A DNA stretch of 10,988 nucleotides, taken from the NCBI GenBank assembly GCA_027021085.1, contig JALUVB010000003.1, positions 1 through 10,988 of the forward strand, in the 5' to 3' direction. Shown here piece by piece: positions 1 through 10,957 of the stretch. Position 1 is the first letter of the stretch. Every line of letters begins with the position of its first letter. The DNA is from a bacterium. Lineage in GTDB: Bacteria > CAIJMQ01 > JAADFP01. Both the position numbers and the translations under genes were made by a program. The notes beneath the pieces were generated by a model. That model was not told the DNA's origin and searched no databases. It saw nothing but the letters and a program-made list of their open reading frames with translations.

Positions 1-1510
1 AGGTGGGCAGAAAACTCTTCCCTTCCACCAGGAGCAGTAGGAAAGTGGAGGAGAAAATAATGAAAAAAGCGAAGGATACCACGGCAATAATCTTGTGCAC
101 CAGGCCAGAGGGAAGTGTTCTGTGCCATACCTCAACTTTATCTTTTCCCCTGAGATAGGAGAAAATAGTTATTATAACCACGGCAAAGGTGGAAGTCTTT
201 ATTCCGCCTCCGGTAGAACCGGGAGAAGCTCCCACGAACATTAAGAAAATGATGAATAATTGCGCAGCCGGGTTAAGCTTGCTTATCTCAATGGTAGAGA
301 AGCCGGCTGTCCTCGCGGTAACCGACTGAAAAAACGAAGTTAAGATTCGCCCCTTCAGAGAAAGGGAGCTGTCATAGTTTATCCACATGAGAAAGAAGAA
401 GCCAGAAATTACTAAGATAGCCGTGGTTAAAAGCACCAACCTGGAATGGATAGAGAGCACAACGAATCTTCTGTGGATTTTCTTGTTAAAGAATTTGAAG
501 ATGTCCATCAACACCACAAAACCCAAACCGCCGATAATGATAAGTGCGGCAAAGATAAGATTTATGCTGGTGGAATCCCTGAAATTCTGTAAGCTGTTGC
601 TGAACAAGGAAAATCCCGCATTGCAGAAAGCAGAAACCGAGTGAAAGAGGGCAAAGAAGTAAGGCGAGGGCACTGATTGCGGGTAGGCAGCAAATATCCG
701 GGCTAAGGCAAATGTACCTATTGCCTCCACAAAGAGAGTGGTCAAAAGGACAGTCAGCACCACCTTCCCCAGCTCACCCACCATATCGTAGTCCAGGACA
801 TCTTTCAGGAGGGCCCTTTCGCGTATACCTATGCCTCTACCCATTATCAAGGCAAAGAAGGAAACAAAAGTCACCAATCCCAATCCTCCCACCTGAATTA
901 AGAAAAGGATTACGGATTGCCCAAAGCGGGTGAAGGCAGTGGAAATATCCAGGACAGACAAGCCGGTGACGCAGGTGGCAGAGGTAGCTGTGAATAACCT
1001 GTCTATCAGGGGAATATATCCTCTCCCGTAGGCTTGCGGCAGGGAGAGGAGGAAAGTGCCCAGAACTATTATCCCTAAGTAGGTAATTACCACTACCTGT
1101 CCCGGCTTGAGAGGAAGATGCACCAGAATCCGCGGCAAATCGCTGGCTTTTACCAGTATTTGCAGGGCAAGGTATATCTGTACCGGGATGAAAAAAGGTG
1201 TCGGAACCAGGAAGTGAGGCAGCTTTACAATATAGGTGGCGTGGGAAGAACGGAGAAGGAAAAGGAAAGATAGCAAGAGTATAAAGAAAACAAAGAGCGA
1301 TATTGCCTCTGCAATATTAGCCTTCCAGGTATCCCTGCGGTAACTGCCCTTATAGAGAAGGGTTAGAATTTCTACAATAAAGAAAAAGGCAAGAAAAAGC
1401 TGAAAAAAATGCAGGTTAATTATTCCCTGGTTGCCCCAGGGAAAGCCGTATTCCAGCACCAAAGATACAAAGGCGAAGAAGGCAAAAATGTAGGAAATTT
1501 TTTTGCTCAT
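1..1510 (-). CDS. trkH: TrkH/KtrB-family potassium uptake channel subunit (3' end beyond window)
   Basis: This is the membrane pore subunit of a Trk/Ktr K+ uptake system. The frame stays open for 503 codons from ATG at 1508-1510 to the window edge, so the C-terminus is missing. All four selectivity-filter loops of the family are readable: SATCVTGL (about residues 177-184), SVSAFCNAGF (291-300), SVTARTAGF (396-404) and GASPGSTGGGIKT (427-439). These follow the four-fold M1-P-M2 pattern. The N-terminal 140 or so residues are strongly hydrophobic and add membrane helices before the first pore unit, as in the longer members of the family. A GGGAG Shine-Dalgarno lies 10 bases before the ATG, inside the end of the preceding gene. 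Only one base separates it from that gene's stop, so it is the distal member of the operon. The family needs a cytoplasmic TrkA/KtrA RCK partner; it is not in the window and may lie just downstream. The family call is firm; TrkH versus KtrB is not resolved. Confidence 0.95.
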   Translation of the reverse strand, partial: MSKKISYIFAFFAFVSLVLEYGFPWGNQGIINLHFFQLFLAFFFIVEILTLLYKGSYRRDTWKANIAEAISLFVFFILLLSFLFLLRSSHATYIVKLPHFLVPTPFFIPVQIYLALQILVKASDLPRILVHLPLKPGQVVVITYLGIIVLGTFLLSLPQAYGRGYIPLIDRLFTATSATCVTGLSVLDISTAFTRFGQSVILFLIQVGGLGLVTFVSFFALIMGRGIGIRERALLKDVLDYDMVGELGKVVLTVLLTTLFVEAIGTFALARIFAAYPQSVPSPYFFALFHSVSAFCNAGFSLFSNSLQNFRDSTSINLIFAALIIIGGLGFVVLMDIFKFFNKKIHRRFVVLSIHSRLVLLTTAILVISGFFFLMWINYDSSLSLKGRILTSFFQSVTARTAGFSTIEISKLNPAAQLFIIFLMFVGASPGSTGGGIKTSTFAVVIITIFSYLRGKDKVEVWHRTLPSGLVHKIIAVVSFAFFIIFSSTFLLLLVEGKSFLPT

Positions 1511-1511
1511 T

Positions 1512-2285
1512 CTAAAAATACTCCCGGGAAACAGCTTCCAGGTCAATTTCCCAGCCATCCTTGGCCACCAGCATTTTCACTCCCGTAGCCCTCTCTATCT
1601 CTTCCGCCACTTTCCAGGGGTTTGCCCTGAGCACGGTCATACCAAAATGAGTAAGGATTCCTACACGGGGCATAGTCTCTTTTAAAATCTTCACCACATC
1701 CGGCATGGAAAGATGGTCAAGGGGGCCGGAAGGTAATCTTACCATATTAAATACCATAACCGGAGCCTTATAAGCCTCAGCCAGCCCGGCAAAGTAGCGA
1801 GTATCGGTAATCCAGGAGAGGATGAAGTGAGAGAATTTGAATTTAAATCCATAGGTTTCTGCATTTCCGTGGATATGCTTTATAGGGGTGGAAAAGTTAA
1901 TCTCTCCTACCGTGTACTCCCTGCCTTCTCGTAATATCTCTATTTTCCCCACGTAATTCCGTATATATTTCAGGATAACAGGGTCATCCTCCAGAGCATC
2001 TTCGGGAGCAAAAACCACCCCCCTCTTTTTGAATCCTCCCTCAGTCATAGCCTCAATCATAATATTAACATCTGAGGAGTGATCCAGGTGGCGGTGGGAA
2101 AGGATAAGCGCAGAAAGTTTTGCAGGGTTTAATCCCTTTTCCAGGGATTTGACCAGGGCACCGGGGCCAGGGTCCAGGAGAACCTGCGTATTACCCTTGC
2201 TAATCCATATTCCCCCAGAAGCACGCATCTGCCTGGAAACAACAAACCGCGCTCCTCCCGTGCCCAGAAAAATGAGTTTTTCCAT
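1512..2285 (-). CDS. metallo-beta-lactamase-fold hydrolase, RNase Z/PhnP-like
   Basis: This 257-residue soluble protein has a metallo-beta-lactamase fold. It opens with the beta-strand/Gly motif [13 protein letters not shown], continues with LLDPGPGAL (36-44), and carries the HxHxDH metal site as SHRHLDH, with H64, H66, D68 and H69. Further likely ligands are H137 or H139 in KHIHGNAETYGF, D161 in SWITDTRYF, H191 in PLDHLS and H213 in GILTHFG. The HIHG...YGF and ITDTRYF blocks resemble RNase Z and PhnP-type phosphodiesterases rather than beta-lactamases. The long flexible arm of true RNase Z is not evident, so a tRNA 3'-processing role is not supported. Substrate is unknown; a phosphodiester or cyclic phosphate is a guess. 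Its ATG shares one base with the acylphosphatase stop (TGATG), and TrkH follows after one base, so it is translationally coupled on both sides. No good Shine-Dalgarno of its own is seen, consistent with coupling. Confidence 0.88.
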   Translation of the reverse strand: MEKLIFLGTGGARFVVSRQMRASGGIWISKGNTQVLLDPGPGALVKSLEKGLNPAKLSALILSHRHLDHSSDVNIMIEAMTEGGFKKRGVVFAPEDALEDDPVILKYIRNYVGKIEILREGREYTVGEINFSTPIKHIHGNAETYGFKFKFSHFILSWITDTRYFAGLAEAYKAPVMVFNMVRLPSGPLDHLSMPDVVKILKETMPRVGILTHFGMTVLRANPWKVAEEIERATGVKMLVAKDGWEIDLEAVSREYF

Positions 2286-2566
2286 CAGTAAACTATAGAA
2301 AAAGAATCAAACTCTCCCAGGTATTCTTCCCAGTCCACTTCCACTTTTGCCACACTGGCGTAAGGAGGCCCTTCATGCGCCCATTCTATAAGTTTCTTTA
2401 CTTTTTCCTCTTCACCTTCTAACATCATCTCTACTCTTCCGTCCCGGGTATTTCTCACCCATCCCTTTACTCCGAGTTTATAGGCCATCTTCTGCGTGTA
2501 ATAGCGGAAAAGCACTCCCTGCACCACACCGGAAACGAAGACATGTGCCCTGGCTTTCTCTCCCAT
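2285..2566 (-). CDS. acyP: acylphosphatase
   Basis: This is a small cytosolic enzyme of 93 residues, the normal size for the family, hydrolysing the carboxyl-phosphate bond of acyl phosphates. The signature [14 protein letters not shown] places the phosphate-binding loop and catalytic Arg at R21. [13 protein letters not shown] supplies the second signature with catalytic Asn N39. The predicted beta-alpha-beta-beta-alpha-beta order is complete, ending in FDSFSIVY. A good Shine-Dalgarno (GGAGGG, 7 bases before the ATG) is embedded in the last codons of the TPR gene, whose stop is one base upstream. The next gene starts within its stop codon. Acylphosphatases are often stand-alone housekeeping genes; being locked between a TPR envelope protein and a metallo-hydrolase is informative about co-expression but not about substrate. 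Confidence 0.96.
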
Positions 2567-2567
2567 A

Positions 2568-4853
2568 CTACATCCCTCCGTGCTTCTTCCTGAATTTTCC
2601 CGCCTCTTTACTGGTGGGGAAACGAGTAATCAGCTCCTGGAAGACCTTCTCCGCTTCCTCGTCCTTCCCCAATCTCTTCAGTGAAATTCCTGCCTTGTAA
2701 AGTGCCTGGGGCACAAAGGGAGAATCCTGGTAAAGGTAGGCAAGCTTAAGATAATAGCGATAAGCCTGGGCGTAAGAACCCAGGGAGAAAAAGTATTCTC
2801 CCAGGGAGCAAAGAGCTCGCGAAGCATATTCCCCTCCCTCGGTTGCTCTCTTCCAATATTCCACGGATTTATCTCCCTCCCCCTTCATACTATAAGCCTC
2901 TCCCAGGAGAAAGTATACTTTTCCCTTTAACCTGGAATGCGGGTATTTCTCCAGAAAGCTTTCCAGTCTCTTTATCCCCTTTGCCAGCTTACCAGAAAGC
3001 ACCTCCACCTCACCCTTCCCCACCTCTATGACTTCCATATCTTCCCTGCTTTTGAACCTTTTCTCCATTTCATTGTAAACAAACAAAGAATTCCTGTAAG
3101 CCTTGTTCTTTAGAAAGTATTCGGCTAACCAGAGAAGAGTATTCTTATCCACCGGATAGGAAGGAAACTTTTTTAAAATACTGAGAAATACACGGGCAGA
3201 GTTTTTCTGCTCACCCTCCAGAAAGTAGGTATAGGCCAAAAGATAGGTAACTTCCGGTGCATACCTTCCCCGGGGAAACTTGTCCAGATAAAGAAGGAAG
3301 TAGTTAACCGCAGTGGACAATTTGTCATTTCTCTTCGCCACTATTCCGGCCTGGTATATAAGCTCCTCCTTCCAGGAGCTTTCCGGGTATGACTGCAGGA
3401 ATTCCTCCACTCTTTGAAAAAACAGGGACAGCTTCTCTTCCTTCAAAGCCACCTGCACCAGGTAGTAATCAGCCCCCTCAGCCCAATCGCCGCCGGGTTT
3501 CTCTTTTTTTACTTGCTGAAAATCTTTTTCTGCCGCCGGGTAATTTCCCGAATAGTAAAACCCCACTCCCCTATGAAACAAGGCAGGAAGGTAATACTTA
3601 TGAGAAGGGAACGAGTTTACAAACAAATTAAATAGTGGCAGGGATTCCCGGTAGCGCGACATTTTCTCCAGGAGAAGTCCTTTTTCGTAGAGGAGGTCCG
3701 GGTAATAAGGGGACTTTTGAAAAGAATCAATATCTGCAAGGTAACTCAATGCTGACTTGAAATTACCTTTCTCACTATCCATTTCGGAAAGGAGTAGCAA
3801 AGAGAGAGGCGCATATTTACCTTGCAGGGTGGATACTTCTTTCAAAATATTCTTTGCTTCCTCTACCTTACCTTCTTTTTTCTCCACCCGGGCAAGGAAG
3901 TAACGGGCTTCAGGGTAATAGGGTGATTTCTTGGAGAGCAAGGAAAGATAATAGGTGCTTTTCTGCAAATCTCCCAGCTGGAGATTCACCTTTCCTTTCC
4001 ACAACCATAAAGACTCTTTAATCTTTGCCTCTTTTATTGTCTTTTTCTCCAGATTAGAGAACCATTTATCTGCTTCCTTCCAGTTACCTGCACGATAGTA
4101 GGATATCCCCATTCCCAGAATAGCATTATTTATCTGCTTGCTTGCGGGAAATTCCTGCAGTAATGCAGAAAAATACTTGCGGGCTTCCTGATAACGGGAA
4201 AGCTCAAGATTTACCCTGCCCAGGGAGTAGAGCAGTTCTTCTTTAAGAGAAGGAGGGGGAAGAGAAGAGAGAGCATTAAGAAAGAACTCTCTGCTTAAAG
4301 CCTTTTCTCCCCTATTCCAGGAGAAAATTGCCAGGTTAAACCAGGCATAGGGAAGAATGGGGCTTTGGGGGAATTCGCGTTTCAGCTTATTAACATACTT
4401 CTGGGCTTCCTTCCCCTTCCCCTCCCTCAGCATAAGCTCCCCCAGCAGGGAAAGCACCCCTTCTCTGAGTTTTCCTGGAATACTTGCCTTTTCTAATTCA
4501 GAAAGTATTTCCCCTGCTTCCCTGTATTTTCTCTCTTCCAGGTAAACCTGGCTCAGCCTGTATAATGCCTCTTTTTCTTTCTCGCCATGCAGAGAAACGA
4601 CTTCTCTGAAATTTTTCTCCGCTTCTTTCCATTTCTTTAACTGGAAATAACACTCGCCTTTTCTGAATTTTAGCAGGGCTGTTTTTTCATTCCCCGGATA
4701 CTTCTTTTCATAATTTATATATTCCTTTAGAGCCAGGTCATACATGCCGCGGGCAAAAAGACTCTCGGCAAAATCCCAGTCCTCCTGCGGGGAAGAAAAA
4801 AGGAGAAAGGAAAACCCCAGAATGATAAAAAGAATTAACGCTTTTTTTCCCAT
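2568..4853 (-). CDS. large secreted tetratricopeptide-repeat protein
   Basis: This protein of 761 residues starts with a typical Sec signal peptide: Lys residues at 3-4, then a hydrophobic core at about 5-19 ending near SSPQEDW. There is no lipobox cysteine, so it is expected to be soluble in the periplasm or exported rather than a lipoprotein. The rest is almost entirely helical hairpins of about 34-37 residues, with the TPR pattern of small residues and Tyr at fixed positions and a FPxSxxxxxAxxxxG linker (for example [20 protein letters not shown] and [19 protein letters not shown]). I estimate more than fifteen repeats. The last hairpins ([20 protein letters not shown], then FP..KEA) resemble the TPR part of YbgF/CpoB and BamD. 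It likely acts as a protein-protein scaffold in the cell envelope; partner unknown. It overlaps the HPS gene by 19 bases, and an AGGTGAT site lies 12 bases before its ATG. The acylphosphatase follows after one base. Confidence 0.9.
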
Positions 4854-6133
4854 CTAAGTAGTTCCATCACCTCGCTTAATGTCCCTCCCTCCTGAATCTC
4901 CTTTCTTATCCGGTTTTCCCTCTCTAACACATCCATGGCTCTATTTGCCACTTCCTCCGCCTTTTCCTTAGGTATCCATACCACTCCGTCTTCATCGCCC
5001 ACCAGCCAATCACCGGGAGAAACTGCCTTCCCCCCTACCCTAACCGTTACCCCTATCTCGCCAAAACCCTTGGGCTCACCTGCCTGGGGTGTAATAATAC
5101 GGGCAAAGGCAGGAAACTTTAATTCTCTGATTTCCGATACATCTCTTATTCCTCCGTCAATCACCACGCCGGCTATCTTTTTATTCCTGGCTGACCAGGT
5201 AGCCAATTCACCCCACACTGCCGGTCCCACTCCCCCCGCATCCACCACAATTACCTCGCCCTCCCCTGCTTTCTCAATCGCCTCCACTGGCTTTGCCCAG
5301 TCACCCGGATAAGTCCTTACTGTAAATGCCCTTCCCACCATCTTAACTCCCCTTACCACGCATCTTATTCCTTCCAGGACACCGCCTCTATGCAGGGCAT
5401 CTGATATATTGGGAGTGGAAACCTTCTCCAGCACTTTTCTTATCTCTTCTCCTTGCACCCGGCGATAGAGAAAGGTAGGAATAGGTTTTTCCTGCAGGAT
5501 AGCTTTTTTTATAATTCTGGCAGATTCCCGGGCATCGGGAGATTTAATAATTGCTCCGCCCACAATTATTATGGAAGCGCCTCTCCGGGAGGCTTCCGGT
5601 GCAGTCTCGGAGTTTATCCCTCCGGCCACAGCCACGGGAATCCCCACCTTTCCCACTACTTTATCCAGAAGGGCAAAAGGGTCTTCTCCCCTCATCTGGG
5701 CATCTATCGGGGTATGAATCCCCACAAAATCTGCTCCCCACTCCTCCACCTCGCAAGCTCTCTTCACCACATCAGAAACCCCCAGCATATCCACCATTAC
5801 CTTTGCCCCGTAATTCTTCCCTGCCTCAATACACTCCTTTATGGTAGAATCCGAAATCCCTCCCAGCACACACACGATATCCGCACCTGCCTTGGCAGCA
5901 ATCTCCACCTCCAACCTCCCAGTGTCCGCTATCTTCATGTCTGCGATGAGAGTTCTTGAGGGAAACTCCTCCCGCAGTCTCCTCACCGCATCCAGCCCCT
6001 CGCTCTTGATTAAAGGGGTTCCCGCCTCTATCCAATCCACCCCACCTTCTACCGCTTCATGCGCCACCTTGATGGCTCTCTTAAGCTCCACGAAATCCAG
6101 GGCTAACTGCAGTTTAGTTTCCATATCTTTCAT
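4835..6133 (-). CDS. 3-hexulose-6-phosphate synthase fused to RraA-like domain
   Basis: This 432-residue two-domain cytosolic protein begins with a TIM-barrel hexulose-6-phosphate synthase (about 6-212). It belongs to the OMP decarboxylase superfamily, which joins ribulose 5-phosphate and formaldehyde or cleaves hexulose 6-phosphate. Visible features are ALDF (D13), WIEAGTP (E36), ADMKIADTG (D65, K67, D70), MVDMLGV (D115), GIHTPIDAQ (H140), and phosphate-binding VAGGIN (169-174) and VGGAI (191-195). After a linker, an RraA/HMG-aldolase-like domain spans about 230-425, with GELATWSARNKK and VVIDGGIRD (D326, R330, D331). Those residues are conserved in the aldolase members, so this domain may be an enzyme rather than an RNase E regulator. 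Similar fusions are annotated in archaea as HPS/ribonuclease regulator, where HPS makes pentose phosphate. No hexulose-phosphate isomerase is seen nearby. The first ATG is taken; a second ATG three codons later is possible, since neither has a strong Shine-Dalgarno. It heads the five-gene operon. Its first 46 codons are duplicated exactly upstream. Confidence 0.93.
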   Translation of the reverse strand: MKDMETKLQLALDFVELKRAIKVAHEAVEGGVDWIEAGTPLIKSEGLDAVRRLREEFPSRTLIADMKIADTGRLEVEIAAKAGADIVCVLGGISDSTIKECIEAGKNYGAKVMVDMLGVSDVVKRACEVEEWGADFVGIHTPIDAQMRGEDPFALLDKVVGKVGIPVAVAGGINSETAPEASRRGASIIIVGGAIIKSPDARESARIIKKAILQEKPIPTFLYRRVQGEEIRKVLEKVSTPNISDALHRGGVLEGIRCVVRGVKMVGRAFTVRTYPGDWAKPVEAIEKAGEGEVIVVDAGGVGPAVWGELATWSARNKKIAGVVIDGGIRDVSEIRELKFPAFARIITPQAGEPKGFGEIGVTVRVGGKAVSPGDWLVGDEDGVVWIPKEKAEEVANRAMDVLERENRIRKEIQEGGTLSEVMELLRWEKKR

Positions 6134-6167
6134 AATCTACCACGGGGAGAAGAAGTATTGCAAGGGG
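5996..6167. repeat. 172-bp perfect direct repeat, copy 1 (within intact HPS gene)
   Basis: All 172 bases are identical to 8528-8699 in the same orientation, offset 2532 bases. Here the repeat spans the first 46 codons of the HPS-RraA gene plus 34 bases upstream of its start codon. Identity stops sharply: position 5995 is g against c, and 6168 is c against t. No terminal inverted repeat or short target duplication is visible at the edges. Confidence 0.98.
6134..6163 (-). promoter_or_regulatory. possible promoter of the HPS operon (TTGCAA-18-TAGATT)
   Basis: On the minus strand TTGCAA (6163-6158) is followed after 18 bases by TAGATT (6139-6134), which directly abuts the annotated ATG. If this is the real promoter, transcription would begin near codon 3 and translation would start at the second ATG (6124-6122) of an essentially leaderless message. 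The match to consensus is only partial. Both elements lie inside the duplicated 172 bp. Low confidence. Confidence 0.25.
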
Positions 6168-6303
6168 CTGTACACGCCCATCATAGTTAGGAGAAAGATG
6201 CGTTTCCACGTGGGGCTAATACACAGAAGAATTGTTTGGCATAGTGGGCCTGCTATTCAGCACCTGGAGTAATTCCCAGCAAATTCGTTCTCTCAAAATC
6301 AAC
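6168..6303. other. non-coding spacer between the gene pair and HPS
   Basis: This 136-base spacer separates the stop of the 472-residue protein from copy 1 of the 172-bp repeat. It has no convincing coding frame and no stem-loop followed by a T run. The only clear symmetry is a short CCACGTGG palindrome at 6206-6213. It is not shared with the sequence upstream of copy 2, so it marks one junction of the bracketed segment. Confidence 0.6.
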
Positions 6304-7722
6304 TCAATTATCCCACTTTCCCCAAACAATATCATCTTTTCCTCTCTTCCATACTCCATTAACAAAAATTTCGGGCTCTCCTCCGTCGTCTTTTAAATTT
6401 GCTCCCACACTATAGAGAAGGAACCTATCGCCCTCTTTTTTGTAAATGAAATTCTTCCCCGTGAAGGGATCTTTTGGCAAGGGGGAGAGAATCTTAAGGA
6501 GAATATCATCCAAAGTATCAGGATATACCCCATATTTTATCCTATAGAGTTTTAAAGCAGCGACAATTCTTACTTCTTGCAATTTAGCCTCATACTCTGC
6601 AAAAATTTTGAAGGTTCCAAATATATCCGGGAGCAGCATATGAGAGATAAAGTGCCACTCACTTATCTTTGCTGATTTAGAGAAAAGTTTGTTTATCTCT
6701 TTTCTATAGTCATTCCTAACTTCTTCTTCCAACTTCTCGCTTTCTTTTATTGCCTCATAAAGAGGGAGTTCCGTTAATGATATCATCTTCTTATAAATTC
6801 TTAATCCATACAATGCATCACCTTTAATAAATCGCGAATAAATGAAGTAACTCATTTTGCCCATCTTAAGACCTCTCTCCTCAATTAGGAAATTTCGGGG
6901 ATTCTGGACTGCTTCTATAAATATGCATCTCTTACCCAAAATTATAAGTTTTAACATCTCTTTTATATCCTGTTGACAGGAGGCTAATACATCTATCAGC
7001 CTTTTAAGAGTTACGGGAGACAAATCACCTTCCAGCAATATCTTTTCTAAAGAACTTAGCATTACACTATAAATACTCAGCCGTATAAACTGGACAATAA
7101 ATACAGGTTGATTAGAGAGACTATCCCCTACTTTTTTTATCTGGAAGGCAATATTTACTGCCTCCTCCGCATTATGCTTTTCTAACTCCCATAAAACCTT
7201 CAGCGCCAAAAGCCGCACAGATGTCCTGAGCCATTCTACATAGGGTGGATCTGAAAAATATGACAATTTAAAATACGATGACATTTCATAATTTACCGGT
7301 AATTGGCATCTATTGTACGTAATAGCTTTCTCAATCAGGAAAAAGGACTCCTCATTCTCTTTAATAAAACTGTCAAGAGCAATTTTTTCCTTCAAAGTCA
7401 GGTTAGAGGGTCGCTCAGATAAAAGCTCTTCAATTTCTCCAGGAAGCTTTCCTACCTTATCAGATGCTTTTTGATAAAGAAAAGCAGCATTCTCCTCTTT
7501 TGGAATTGGAGGAGAAGCTAAATCTTTCAAATTGAGAGGGTCTCCTCTTGCTTTTATATAAGAAATTTCTTTCTTTAATTCCATGCCTGCTGTTCTACTC
7601 GGAGCAATAATAGGAAAAGGTGAATATTTCTCTGGGGAATATATAAGTAAATATCCAACTATGGGGAATACTACTAATCCCACGATTCCTGCTATAATTT
7701 CAAATTTACTCAATTTTTTCAT
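6304..7722 (-). CDS. membrane-anchored protein with pseudopilin-like C-terminal domain
   Basis: I do not recognise a named family for the whole 472-residue protein. One N-terminal membrane helix (about 8-28) follows a short Lys-rich start, giving an anchor with the bulk outside the cytoplasm. The middle (about 45-380) is a helical, charge-rich region with no motif I can name. The last 90 residues have a recognisable pattern: AALKLYRIKYGVYPDTLDDI, then LPKDPFTGKNFIYKKEG, LYSVGANLKDDGGEPE and DDIVWGKW. This matches the C-terminal domain of GspG-like type II pseudopilins, in which a helix ending in YP..L is followed by DP..G..Y and YS.G.DG. Such domains also end large proteins of unknown role in Planctomycetes-like genomes. 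The gene starts 6 bases after the previous stop, so it is co-transcribed with it. It is visibly AT-rich: line 6781-6840 has 16 G/C of 60, against 31 of 60 for 5041-5100 in HPS. No secretion-system genes are nearby, so its function is unknown. Confidence 0.82.
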   Translation of the reverse strand: MKKLSKFEIIAGIVGLVVFPIVGYLLIYSPEKYSPFPIIAPSRTAGMELKKEISYIKARGDPLNLKDLASPPIPKEENAAFLYQKASDKVGKLPGEIEELLSERPSNLTLKEKIALDSFIKENEESFFLIEKAITYNRCQLPVNYEMSSYFKLSYFSDPPYVEWLRTSVRLLALKVLWELEKHNAEEAVNIAFQIKKVGDSLSNQPVFIVQFIRLSIYSVMLSSLEKILLEGDLSPVTLKRLIDVLASCQQDIKEMLKLIILGKRCIFIEAVQNPRNFLIEERGLKMGKMSYFIYSRFIKGDALYGLRIYKKMISLTELPLYEAIKESEKLEEEVRNDYRKEINKLFSKSAKISEWHFISHMLLPDIFGTFKIFAEYEAKLQEVRIVAALKLYRIKYGVYPDTLDDILLKILSPLPKDPFTGKNFIYKKEGDRFLLYSVGANLKDDGGEPEIFVNGVWKRGKDDIVWGKWDN

Positions 7723-7728
7723 ATTTTT

Positions 7729-8454
7729 TTATATACTCTCAAGAATCCTTGGATTGGCTTCTATAATCTCCATGTATAACAAAAGGGTAAATGTTGTCAC
7801 CCAGACAGTGAGGATACTTTTTATCCCGCCATAGAGAATAATTCCCACTGGATACGGCACGAAAGCAGAAAAAACACCTATTAGTATGGGTAAGTAGAAA
7901 AGCAGGGATAATGTATAGCTTATAATCCCCATCAATAGCATATAACCAATGACTTTCCCCGGGGATACTTTCACCACCAATTTACTCAAAACAAGTGCCT
8001 CTCCCTTTCTTTTTTTGTGGACAACAGCAGTATAGACTGAAAAAAGATACCAGATAAAAAAGATTATTCCCGGGACAATAAAGAGAACGCTCCCTCCCAG
8101 TATAATGAGATATTCAATAATAAGAATCGTTGATACCGGAAAGAATAATTTCACTGCCTCTGTGTACACAGAAGAAAGAGGTTTCTTTTCGTCTTTCTGT
8201 AAATTATTTAGTGCAATTACTATTGCAACAATGCCTAAGGTAGTGAGAAACCAGGAAATTAAACTAATAGTCACATAGGCTAAGCGGGCATACAAGATAG
8301 GTAAAAGGTAAGGTTTAAACCATTTCCATAAGCCATTTACTATTACTCCCCAGAAATAGGATAAAAAGATTATTGAAGTAAGGAATTTAAAATTTGTCTT
8401 ATAAAGGTGGAGACTTTCTTTGAATAAACCTGAAAATCCCCTGGTATCTACCAT
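7729..8454 (-). CDS. polytopic membrane protein, YciC/GPDPase-membrane-domain-like
   Basis: This is a 241-residue integral membrane protein. Hydrophobic helices fall at about 24-42, 59-81, 104-122, 124-141, 166-195 and 202-227. The core VPGIIFFIWYLFSVY (about 127-141) is followed by a basic stretch (HKKRKGEALVLSK) and an amphipathic segment before the next helix. It resembles the layout of YciC/UPF0259 and the membrane domain found with glycerophosphodiester phosphodiesterases; that relation is tentative. A TTG six bases upstream (8460-8458) is in frame, but ATG at 8454-8452 is preferred because neither has a proper Shine-Dalgarno and ATG is the commoner start. It is AT-rich like its downstream partner (line 8341-8400 has 15 G/C of 60) and separated from it by 6 bases. 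Upstream lie a small inverted repeat and the truncated HPS copy, whose duplicated start region might supply its promoter. Confidence 0.82.
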   Translation of the reverse strand: MVDTRGFSGLFKESLHLYKTNFKFLTSIIFLSYFWGVIVNGLWKWFKPYLLPILYARLAYVTISLISWFLTTLGIVAIVIALNNLQKDEKKPLSSVYTEAVKLFFPVSTILIIEYLIILGGSVLFIVPGIIFFIWYLFSVYTAVVHKKRKGEALVLSKLVVKVSPGKVIGYMLLMGIISYTLSLLFYLPILIGVFSAFVPYPVGIILYGGIKSILTVWVTTFTLLLYMEIIEANPRILESI

Positions 8455-8470
8455 CCCCAAATTACATTTG

Positions 8471-8493
8471 GAAAGTGGGATTCTGCCACTTTC
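8471..8493. repeat. 8-bp inverted repeat upstream of the membrane gene
   Basis: GAAAGTGG (8471-8478) and CCACTTTC (8486-8493) are perfect complements around a 7-base loop. The element sits between the end of the truncated HPS fragment and the start of the membrane gene. No T run follows on the minus strand, so a terminator is unlikely. It could be an operator, an mRNA leader hairpin or a junction remnant. Confidence 0.5.
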
Positions 8494-8500
8494 TCATTAT

Positions 8501-8665
8501 TTAAACAAAATGTTTCGCATTTCCTACCCCCTCGCTCTTGATTAAAGGGGTTCCCGCCTCTATCCAATCCACCCCACCTTCTACCGCTTCATGCGCCACC
8601 TTGATGGCTCTCTTAAGCTCCACGAAATCCAGGGCTAACTGCAGTTTAGTTTCCATATCTTTCAT
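8501..8665 (-). pseudogene. truncated 5' copy of the HPS-RraA gene
   Basis: The frame begins at the duplicated start codon (8665-8663) and reads the first 46 residues of the HPS barrel unchanged, up to KSEG in the loop after the WIEAGTP motif. After the repeat ends it runs into unrelated sequence (VGNAKHFV) and stops at TAA 8503-8501, giving 54 codons. It lacks the DxKxxD catalytic motif and cannot form a barrel, so it is a gene remnant. There is no divergence at all from the intact copy, which means it is either very recent, under gene conversion or an assembly artefact. It may be translated as a short leader before the membrane gene, whose start is 47 bases beyond its stop. Confidence 0.9.
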
Positions 8666-8699
8666 AATCTACCACGGGGAGAAGAAGTATTGCAAGGGG
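8528..8699. repeat. 172-bp perfect direct repeat, copy 2 (displaced HPS 5' end)
   Basis: This stretch is identical base for base to 5996-6167. It carries the HPS start codon, 46 codons and the 34 bases in front, including both elements of the possible TTGCAA/TAGATT promoter (8695-8690 and 8671-8666). It lies upstream of the AT-rich two-gene segment in the same orientation as the genes. Confidence 0.98.
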
Positions 8700-8773
8700 T
8701 TGGAGAAATCAACATATGGGGAAAATGCCCCTCTCTTCCCCCGATGTTCACCAGGATGAGTTGGGAGTTGTTC

Positions 8774-8804
8774 CCGATGTCCATCGGTCCCGGCATGTGT
8801 CGGG
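8774..8804. repeat. tandem palindromes CCGATG-TC-CATCGG and CCCGGCATGTGTCGGG
   Basis: CCGATG (8774-8779) and CATCGG (8782-8787) form a perfect 6-bp inverted repeat. It is followed at 8789-8804 by the near-palindrome CCCGGCATGTGTCGGG. The latter differs at two positions from the perfect CCCGACATATGTCGGG at 10918-10933 and resembles 10958-10973. It is followed by GGTACCTATGCCCCCA, almost the same as the downstream flank of the last copy, so the repeat unit extends beyond the palindrome. Confidence 0.8.
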
Positions 8805-8822
8805 GTACCTATGCCCCCATGT

Positions 8823-8857
8823 TAGACTATAGACATCAGACTTTAGACATTAGACGG
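8823..8857. repeat. heptad array, TAGACNN type
   Basis: Five contiguous 7-base units in strict register read TAGACTA, TAGACAT, CAGACTT, TAGACAT and TAGACGG. This is the reverse-complement orientation of the NNGTCTA arrays at 8951-8985 and 9230-9264, so the arrays could pair into a long imperfect hairpin. Confidence 0.85.
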
Positions 8858-8883
8858 GAAAGACGCATGATACGGGGAACCAA

Positions 8884-8934
8884 CTCACTGTTCACTATTT
8901 ACTGTTTACTATCTTTTCCCCTCGCTACTAACTA
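8884..8934. repeat. heptad array, NTNACTN type
   Basis: CTCACTG, TTCACTA, TTTACTG and TTTACTA run in register (8884-8911). After a short break, CTCGCTA and CTAACTA follow (8921-8934). The units share the core Y-ACT-R with a 7-base period. Confidence 0.8.
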
Positions 8935-8950
8935 CTGCTCACTATACTTC

Positions 8951-8985
8951 CAGTCTACAGTCTAAAGTCTACGGTCTAAGGTCTA
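8951..8985. repeat. heptad array, NNGTCTA type
   Basis: Five contiguous units read CAGTCTA, CAGTCTA, AAGTCTA, CGGTCTA and AGGTCTA. The first two bases vary while GTCTA is fixed. There are no spacers, so this is a tandem array and not a CRISPR. Confidence 0.88.
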
Positions 8986-8994
8986 AAATCCTGG

Positions 8995-9014
8995 ATGCCT
9001 GCTTTCGCAGGCAT
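8995..9014. repeat. dispersed palindromic repeat ATGCCTGC-TTTC-GCAGGCAT
   Basis: A perfect 8-bp stem with a 4-base loop is embedded in a CCTGG...GACAGG context. This is the layout of the widespread bacterial intergenic repeat of the form GTCATTCC-TGCGAAAGCA-GGAATCC. A second, shortened relative is at 9052-9069 in the opposite orientation. Confidence 0.75.
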
Positions 9015-9051
9015 GACAGGTAGGCTGTTTTTTCTCTTTCTGCTTCTCTCT

Positions 9052-9069
9052 TGTCATTCCTGCGAATCC
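9052..9069. repeat. degenerate copy of the GTCATTCCTGCG-type repeat
   Basis: TGTCATTCCTGCGAATCC matches the two ends of the common repeat, but the middle (the far arm of the hairpin) is deleted. It lies inverted relative to the intact palindrome at 8995-9014. Confidence 0.55.
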
Positions 9070-9135
9070 TAATATCCCTCAGAACCCTATCCCAGGAAAC
9101 CAGGATTACCAACATACCAGGGTACCAAACCCCTA

Positions 9136-9168
9136 TTCACTGTTTACTATAACCCAGTCTAACGTCTA
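9136..9168. repeat. short mixed heptad array
   Basis: TTCACTG and TTTACTA (9136-9149), then after five bases CAGTCTA and ACGTCTA (9155-9168), join the ACT and GTCTA unit types in one block. Confidence 0.7.
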
Positions 9169-9191
9169 AAACTTCTGTCGGGAGCCTTCCC

Positions 9192-9264
9192 CTCGCTACT
9201 CACTACCCGCTACCATTCACTGCTCTCCTCAGTCTATAGTCTAAAGTCTCAGGTCTACAGTCTA
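9192..9264. repeat. heptad array, CTCRCTA then NNGTCTA
   Basis: CTCGCTA, CTCACTA and CCCGCTA occupy 9192-9212. After 17 bases, five contiguous units follow at 9230-9264: CAGTCTA, TAGTCTA, AAGTCTC, AGGTCTA and CAGTCTA. The order of the two unit types is the same as at 8884-8985. Confidence 0.85.
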
Positions 9265-9275
9265 TTTTCTATTAT

Positions 9276-9297
9276 CTTCCTGAACTTCTTCAGGAAG
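9276..9297 (-). terminator. stem-loop directly after the purine permease stop
   Basis: On the minus strand CTTCCTGAA and TTCAGGAAG form a perfect 9-bp stem around a 4-base loop, beginning at the base after the TAA stop. No T run follows (ATAATAGAAAATA), so intrinsic termination is doubtful. It may instead protect the 3' end or be a dispersed CCTGAA..TTCAGG repeat. Confidence 0.4.
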
Positions 9298-10599
9298 TTA
9301 GCGGTAAGGATAGAAAATATAAAACAGCAGGGAAAGAAGGCCCAAAACCCAGCAACCCGGGGTAACTTCTTTTGCTTTCCCGCTAACCAGCTTCATAATG
9401 CAATAGAGCACAAACCCCGCCGTTATACCTACTCCTATATTGTAGGTGAAAGGCATCAAAATAGCCACGGCAAAGGCAGGAACTGCTTCTGTGAAATCGG
9501 AAAAGTTTATTTTCACCACCGTGCTAATCATGAGCAGCCCAACAATCACCAATGCAGGACCGTAGGCATACGCGGGGATGGAAGTAAACAGGGGGGTAAA
9601 AAACAGCGCCAGGAGAAAGAGGAACGCGGTAATCACAGCAGTAAGCCCGGTCCTCCCTCCTTCCTCAATACCTGCACATGACTCTATATAGGTTCCGGTA
9701 GTGGTAGTTCCCAGGAGAGCTCCCAGCACGGTGGCCAGGGCATCGCAAAGCATGGGTTTCTCCACTTCCGGGAAGTCCCCCTTCTCATCAAGCATTCCAG
9801 CCCGGTAGCCTGCTCCGATTAGTGTTCCCATGGTATCCACAAAATCCATGATAAAAAGGGTAAGAATAACGGAGAAAAAGCCCCATTTTAGAGCCCCGAG
9901 AATATCCAGCTGCAGAAAGATGGGAGCCAGCGAAGGAGGCAAACCTACCAGCTTATGCGGGAAAGGAGAAAGTTTGAAAATATAGGCAAGAAAAGTAGTA
10001 AAGAGTATTCCCACCAGCAAAGCTCCTTTTATCTTCCTGGAGAGAAGCACTGCCATCAAGAGAAAGGCAAAAATGCCTAAGAGTATCCTGGGGTCATGGA
10101 TATTTCCCATTTTCACGGGTGCACCGGGAATTCCCAGGCTTACTATTCCCACCTCGTTCAAGCCTATAAAGGCAAGAAACAAGCCTATACCCACAGCAAA
10201 AGAATATTTAAGATTCTGAGGAATGCTCTGTGCCAGCCAGCTTCTCAGCTTGAAAATGGTAAGCAGGGTGAAGAGAACACCGCCTATGAAAACTGCTCCT
10301 ATGGCAGTCTGCCAGGAATACCCCAGCACCTTTACCACGGTAAAGGCAATGAAAGCATTCTCTCCCATATAAGGAGCTATGGCAAAAGGCCGGTTTGCAT
10401 AAATCCCCATGAGAAGGGTACCGAAAAAGGCGGAAAGAATCGTGGCTACCATGGAAGGCCCCTTCGGTATTCCGGCAGCCTCCAGTATTGCGGGATTGAC
10501 TATTATAATGTAAGCCATGGTGAAAAATGTAGTAAACCCTGCCAGAACCTCTGTCCGGAAATTACTCCCTCTCTCTTTTATCCGGAAAAACCTCTCCAT
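9298..10599 (-). CDS. NCS2/AzgA-family purine (adenine/guanine/hypoxanthine) permease
   Basis: This is an inner-membrane nucleobase importer of 433 residues, the usual AzgA length, with about 12-14 hydrophobic helices. Family marks are GFTTFFTMAYIIIVNPAIL (21-39), APYMGENAFIAFTV (75-88), the substrate-site helix MDFVDTMGTLIG (251-262), and GTTTTGTYIESCAGIEEGGRTGL (297-319), whose E306 is in the binding region. The PYMGENAFIA version of the first motif, rather than GMGLNAFFA, suggests a clade shared with archaeal and anaerobe members; that is from memory of the family. AAGGAGGG lies 6 bases before the ATG. A promoter and operator-like palindrome are about 110-150 bases upstream, so it is probably a single-gene transcript under repressor control. 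About 600 non-coding bases follow. Exact purine specificity cannot be told from sequence alone. Confidence 0.93.
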   Translation of the reverse strand: MERFFRIKERGSNFRTEVLAGFTTFFTMAYIIIVNPAILEAAGIPKGPSMVATILSAFFGTLLMGIYANRPFAIAPYMGENAFIAFTVVKVLGYSWQTAIGAVFIGGVLFTLLTIFKLRSWLAQSIPQNLKYSFAVGIGLFLAFIGLNEVGIVSLGIPGAPVKMGNIHDPRILLGIFAFLLMAVLLSRKIKGALLVGILFTTFLAYIFKLSPFPHKLVGLPPSLAPIFLQLDILGALKWGFFSVILTLFIMDFVDTMGTLIGAGYRAGMLDEKGDFPEVEKPMLCDALATVLGALLGTTTTGTYIESCAGIEEGGRTGLTAVITAFLFLLALFFTPLFTSIPAYAYGPALVIVGLLMISTVVKINFSDFTEAVPAFAVAILMPFTYNIGVGITAGFVLYCIMKLVSGKAKEVTPGCWVLGLLSLLFYIFYPYR

Positions 10600-10748: not shown

Positions 10749-10822
10749 GTAGTTTTCAAATGTAGTAATGTTTGTGAACACAATCAGCCTCTCCACCTAA
10801 CTCCTCAACCGGCAAACATCTA

Positions 10823-10878
10823 AAGTCTATGGGCTATAGTCTAAGAGTTGTGAGTTATGAGTTGTTAGTTGTTAGTTC
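10823..10878. repeat. eight-unit heptad array, GTCTA turning into GAGTTG type
   Basis: Eight contiguous 7-base units without a break read AAGTCTA, TGGGCTA, TAGTCTA, AGAGTTG, TGAGTTA, TGAGTTG, TTAGTTG and TTAGTTC. The register is kept while the unit changes from GTCTA to AGTTG. Confidence 0.88.
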
Positions 10879-10905
10879 CACCTGTGCCCCCACCTGTATC
10901 TTGGG

Positions 10906-10952
10906 AGAGTTGTGAGTCCCGACATATGTCGGGAGTTGTTAGTTGTTAGTTC
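10906..10952. repeat. heptad array interrupted by CCCGACATATGTCGGG palindrome
   Basis: AGAGTTG plus TGAGT precede a perfect 16-bp palindrome (10918-10933), and GGAGTTG, TTAGTTG and TTAGTTC follow. The palindrome thus sits inside a heptad array, as if inserted into it or spread together with it. Confidence 0.85.
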
Positions 10953-10957
10953 CCTGT

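Follow-up and report, generated by a model that had tools for sequence, protein, structure and literature searches.

Partial duplication of a target gene upon integration of foreign DNA has been described in Escherichia coli. With a linearised donor of one-sided homology, 56 out of 60 aberrant integrants carried a partly duplicated target gene. The duplications comprised 109-950 bp in sequenced clones and were ascribed to the single crossover of a recircularised molecule, while four of the 60 integrants represented classical homology-facilitated illegitimate recombination (HFIR) with a deletion (PMC3240628). In bacterial species, 10-18% of the variable segments are flanked by direct repeats, and in some species the empty state of such segments is commoner than expected (PMC2884548).

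A foreign-looking segment between direct repeats is present in the window, the whole analysed stretch of 10,988 nucleotides, which is the entire contig C3 of a 307-contig draft assembly of 1.93 Mb (G000) from an uncultured hot-spring lineage. Copy A (5996-6167) and copy B (8528-8699) of the repeat are identical in 172 of 172 bases, with a start-to-start offset of 2532. Sequence comparison agrees in this with the first-pass annotation, which had reported the repeat and its spacing. A chance match of this length is far out of reach. The 1.93-Mb assembly contains these two copies only; a third is absent. Both ends of the repeat are sharp, as had been claimed, and similarity stops at either end: about 17% of random flank pairs reach the similarity of the left flanks of the copies, and 46% reach that of the right flanks. 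Diverged homology past the repeat ends was considered and dropped, being no better than that of random flank pairs. A search for inverted repeats across the window found none, in line with their reported lack at the termini.

The gene order on the minus strand is permease, HPS remnant, ORF2, ORF1, HPS, and then a TPR protein. HPS is an intact bifunctional hexulose-6-phosphate synthase/RraA-like gene (4835..6133, minus strand) encoding 432 aa, and the fusion scores 608 bits against NF005442 (cut-off 593). Copy A, on the same strand, comprises codons 1-46 of this gene together with its 34-bp leader. Copy B, likewise on the minus strand, is a truncated remnant of the HPS start; its frame runs through 46 HPS codons and closes 8 residues into the block between the copies. 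The earlier description of the repeat as the HPS start is thus correct for both copies, but the gene is not split, copy A heading the full-length 432-aa frame. With no difference in 172 bp, the 95% upper bound on the divergence of the copies is approximately 1.7%, compared with a DNA divergence of approximately 14% between G000 and its congener G001. An old duplication held identical by gene conversion is unneeded in view of these values and was rejected.

The block (6168..8527) measures 2,360 bp and has a GC content of 0.364, against a genome mean of 0.452. This value lies below all 340 sampled 2.36-kb windows of other contigs (mean 0.452, sd 0.024). The third-position GC amounts to 0.33 in ORF1 and 0.38 in ORF2, versus 0.51-0.56 in the neighbouring genes. 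The tetranucleotide distance of the block falls within the outer 2.4%, which adds little, since native genes of G000 lie likewise far out. ORF1 (6304..7722, minus strand) encodes 472 aa with an N-terminal membrane segment and a weakly T2SSG-like C-terminus (E 0.002, under the cut-off). ORF2 (7729..8460, minus strand) encodes a multi-pass membrane protein of 243 aa without a known family. Neither matched Pfam, NCBIfam, PHROGs or PADLOC above the cut-off, and searches for solved-structure relatives found none. Structure predictions were of low confidence (mean pLDDT of 67 for ORF2 and 47 for ORF1).

Insertion of a site-specific integrative element or transposon, with the HPS start as attachment site, would account for a duplicated end that keeps the target gene intact and for an empty site in a relative. 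It is very improbable, as ORF1 and ORF2 match no integrase, recombinase, transposase or phage family, no relatives were found on viral contigs or plasmids, inverted repeats and a tRNA site are lacking, and 172 bp would make a long attachment core. RNA families and a tRNA attachment site were sought at the locus without detection. Transposase, terminal inverted repeats and a short target duplication, by which a transposon or insertion sequence would be recognized, were not found, nor was an integrase or recombinase gene in ORF1/ORF2. A transposon or phage origin was rejected on the profile scans and on the viral contig and plasmid searches.

Remote relatives of ORF1 (~30% identity) occur in several copies per genome in a sister family (f2). 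In three genomes of this family (G003, G004 and G005), HPS is preceded by such a relative at a distance of one or two genes (L059 5025-9751, L060 6531-13076 and L061 2185-6111); that of G003 comes after a gene for an ECF sigma factor. These neighbourhoods may hint at the gene order of the donor. A scan of named genomes with ORF1 yielded no relative. Closer kin were represented by G001, the only genome of the same genus that was compared (~86% DNA identity to G000), and by G002 from the same family. Neither ORF1 nor ORF2 was found in these two incomplete genomes (86% and 64% complete, respectively). Vertical inheritance of the ORF1-HPS neighbourhood is not preferred, because the closer kin, at this completeness, show no ORF1 relative.

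The corresponding locus in G001 is distributed over two contigs. C31 matches positions 1-4655 of the window and then ends. C32 starts inside the leader-HPS stretch, of which 82 bases are common to both genomes and 95% identical. On C32 the HPS leader runs directly into the stop codon of the xanthine/uracil permease family gene (9298..10599 in the window, minus strand), with no ORF1 or ORF2 between them. The consecutive numbers, the same orientation and the missing part of HPS, flanked by both contigs, suggest that C31 and C32 form one scaffold with a gap. Given this arrangement, permease-HPS-TPR without ORF1 and ORF2 is likely the ancestral order, with HPS of G001 seen for 16 codons only. A contig end within the leader-HPS stretch would be expected, too, if a repeat were present in G001. 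Judged against C32, the G000 contigs C3 and C4 are adjacent.

Homology of G001 to the window stops at 6165, 2 bp short of the right end of the repeat. This agreement with the end of the conserved leader argues against a random target-site duplication, the outcome expected if foreign DNA had entered a staggered or over-replicated break by repair or template-switching, with no homology of the donor and with duplication of 172 bp of target. A target duplication without inverted repeats and a block missing from relatives speak for such a break insertion. It is nevertheless rather unlikely, since a random break would hardly coincide with the leader end, and a Ku gene was not detected in G000.

An intergenic patch of dispersed degenerate repeats (8700..9297) separates copy B from the permease gene. 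It starts exactly where the HPS leader ends and is missing at that place in G001. Its degenerate motifs are AGTCTA and ACTCACTGTTCACTATT-like, with similar ones at 10809-10953. They recur on other contigs of G000 and in G001, up to 94% alike.

The draft state of the genome raises the question of the assembly. The sample of contigs comprised 58 readable ones besides the window, 0.53 Mb including the window, contigs shorter than 3 kb being represented by N. Five contig-end pairs in this sample overlap by exactly 127 bases (e.g. L167/L214, L193/L194 and L215/L220), which makes a de Bruijn graph assembler with k=127 probable. The 172-bp repeat is longer than this 127-bp overlap, and so a plain overlap join does not apply; reads or read pairs must have crossed the repeat. 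The earlier caveat of an assembly join fails in this simple form but is sensible for a merge of strain variants. Such a composite is the main rival to a chromosomal event, although in itself unlikely. In that case, the assembler would have threaded into one contig, through the 172 bases, either two arrangements of the population (HPS preceded by the permease in one and by ORF2-ORF1 in the other) or an empty chromosome and a free circle of 2,532 bp. The 307-contig draft as source is consistent with it, the exact 127-bp overlaps imply that the repeat was a branching stretch in the graph, and two upstream contexts would naturally part at the right repeat end. Against these points stand the length of the repeat beyond the overlap and the need for both block/repeat junctions to be present in reads. 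Other within-contig repeats of at least 60 bp at 97% identity were absent from the 0.53 Mb sampled, and a circle of 2.5 kb that lacks a replication gene is improbable. No other contig of G000 contains the sequence of the block junctions.

A recent insertion-duplication in the chromosome is considered the most likely account, with moderate confidence. Target copies flank foreign DNA, and one of them belongs to an intact gene. The evidence in the sequence consists of the repeat, the foreign composition of the block, the empty arrangement of G001 and the position of the right repeat end at the leader end. That the event was recent, one of the options named in the first-pass annotation, is supported by the block composition, the failure to find ORF1 and ORF2 in G001 and G002, and the undiverged copies. 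Donor, route of entry and order of events may be inferred as follows. The ancestor would have carried the order permease, leader, HPS and TPR. The donor DNA would have contained ORF2-ORF1 adjoining an HPS leader and start identical or nearly identical to the resident one. Entry would proceed by one homologous crossover inside this shared stretch, either directly or after formation of a circle by end-joining, followed by single-crossover integration. The second joint would be illegitimate and is placed at 8527|8528, beside a run of C and at HPS codon 46. With a donor whose similarity to the resident was confined to the start and leader of HPS, the repeat would end on the right at the limit of the shared sequence and on the left at the illegitimate joint. 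As a result, the block would be flanked on either side by the shared stretch from the leader end to codon 46, with an intact HPS following copy A and with copy B as the remnant. A donor-type arrangement, with ORF1 beside HPS and without copy B, was not found among the genomes searched, none within the genus. A ComEC gene is present in G000; together with the undetected Ku gene, this is compatible with the proposed event, though not specific for it. The insertion-duplication alone does not account for the fact that the patch 8700-9297 begins exactly at the leader end.

Identical 172-bp direct repeats at a distance of 2.5 kb can recombine via RecA. Recombination of this kind between the copies could in principle remove the block. 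The segment had been proposed as possibly excisable with restoration of an intact gene; HPS is already intact, and the loss would only rejoin it to the permease side. The empty arrangement in G001 is most simply read as the ancestral state rather than as a product of excision. A reversible switch, in which RecA-mediated loss and regain via the 172-bp copies would toggle the HPS-permease linkage and the presence of two membrane-protein genes, is highly improbable.

Among the described systems, the locus resembles the lacZ-duplication class of E. coli, in which a foreign segment stands between direct partial copies of the target gene, the 172 bp falling within the range of 109-950 bp (PMC3240628). 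That class was obtained with a plasmid and under selective conditions in E. coli, whereas the present case arose naturally in an uncultured genome, from a putative donor and by a putative route. One homologous and one illegitimate joint, as in HFIR, would give the observed structure; in contrast to the target deletion of classical HFIR, the target is duplicated here. Like the variable segments of bacterial species, the block varies in its presence among related genomes and has direct repeats on both sides, but those repeats are mostly shorter than 30 bp (PMC2884548), in contrast to the fully identical 172 bp of this locus. If the account is true, the locus clearly documents a recent acquisition of foreign genes by an uncultured lineage of hot springs, with the target gene kept intact. 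It would point to integration by one-sided homology and leave the general picture unchanged. Most likely, the locus is a fresh case of a known type of event and not a new mobile element.
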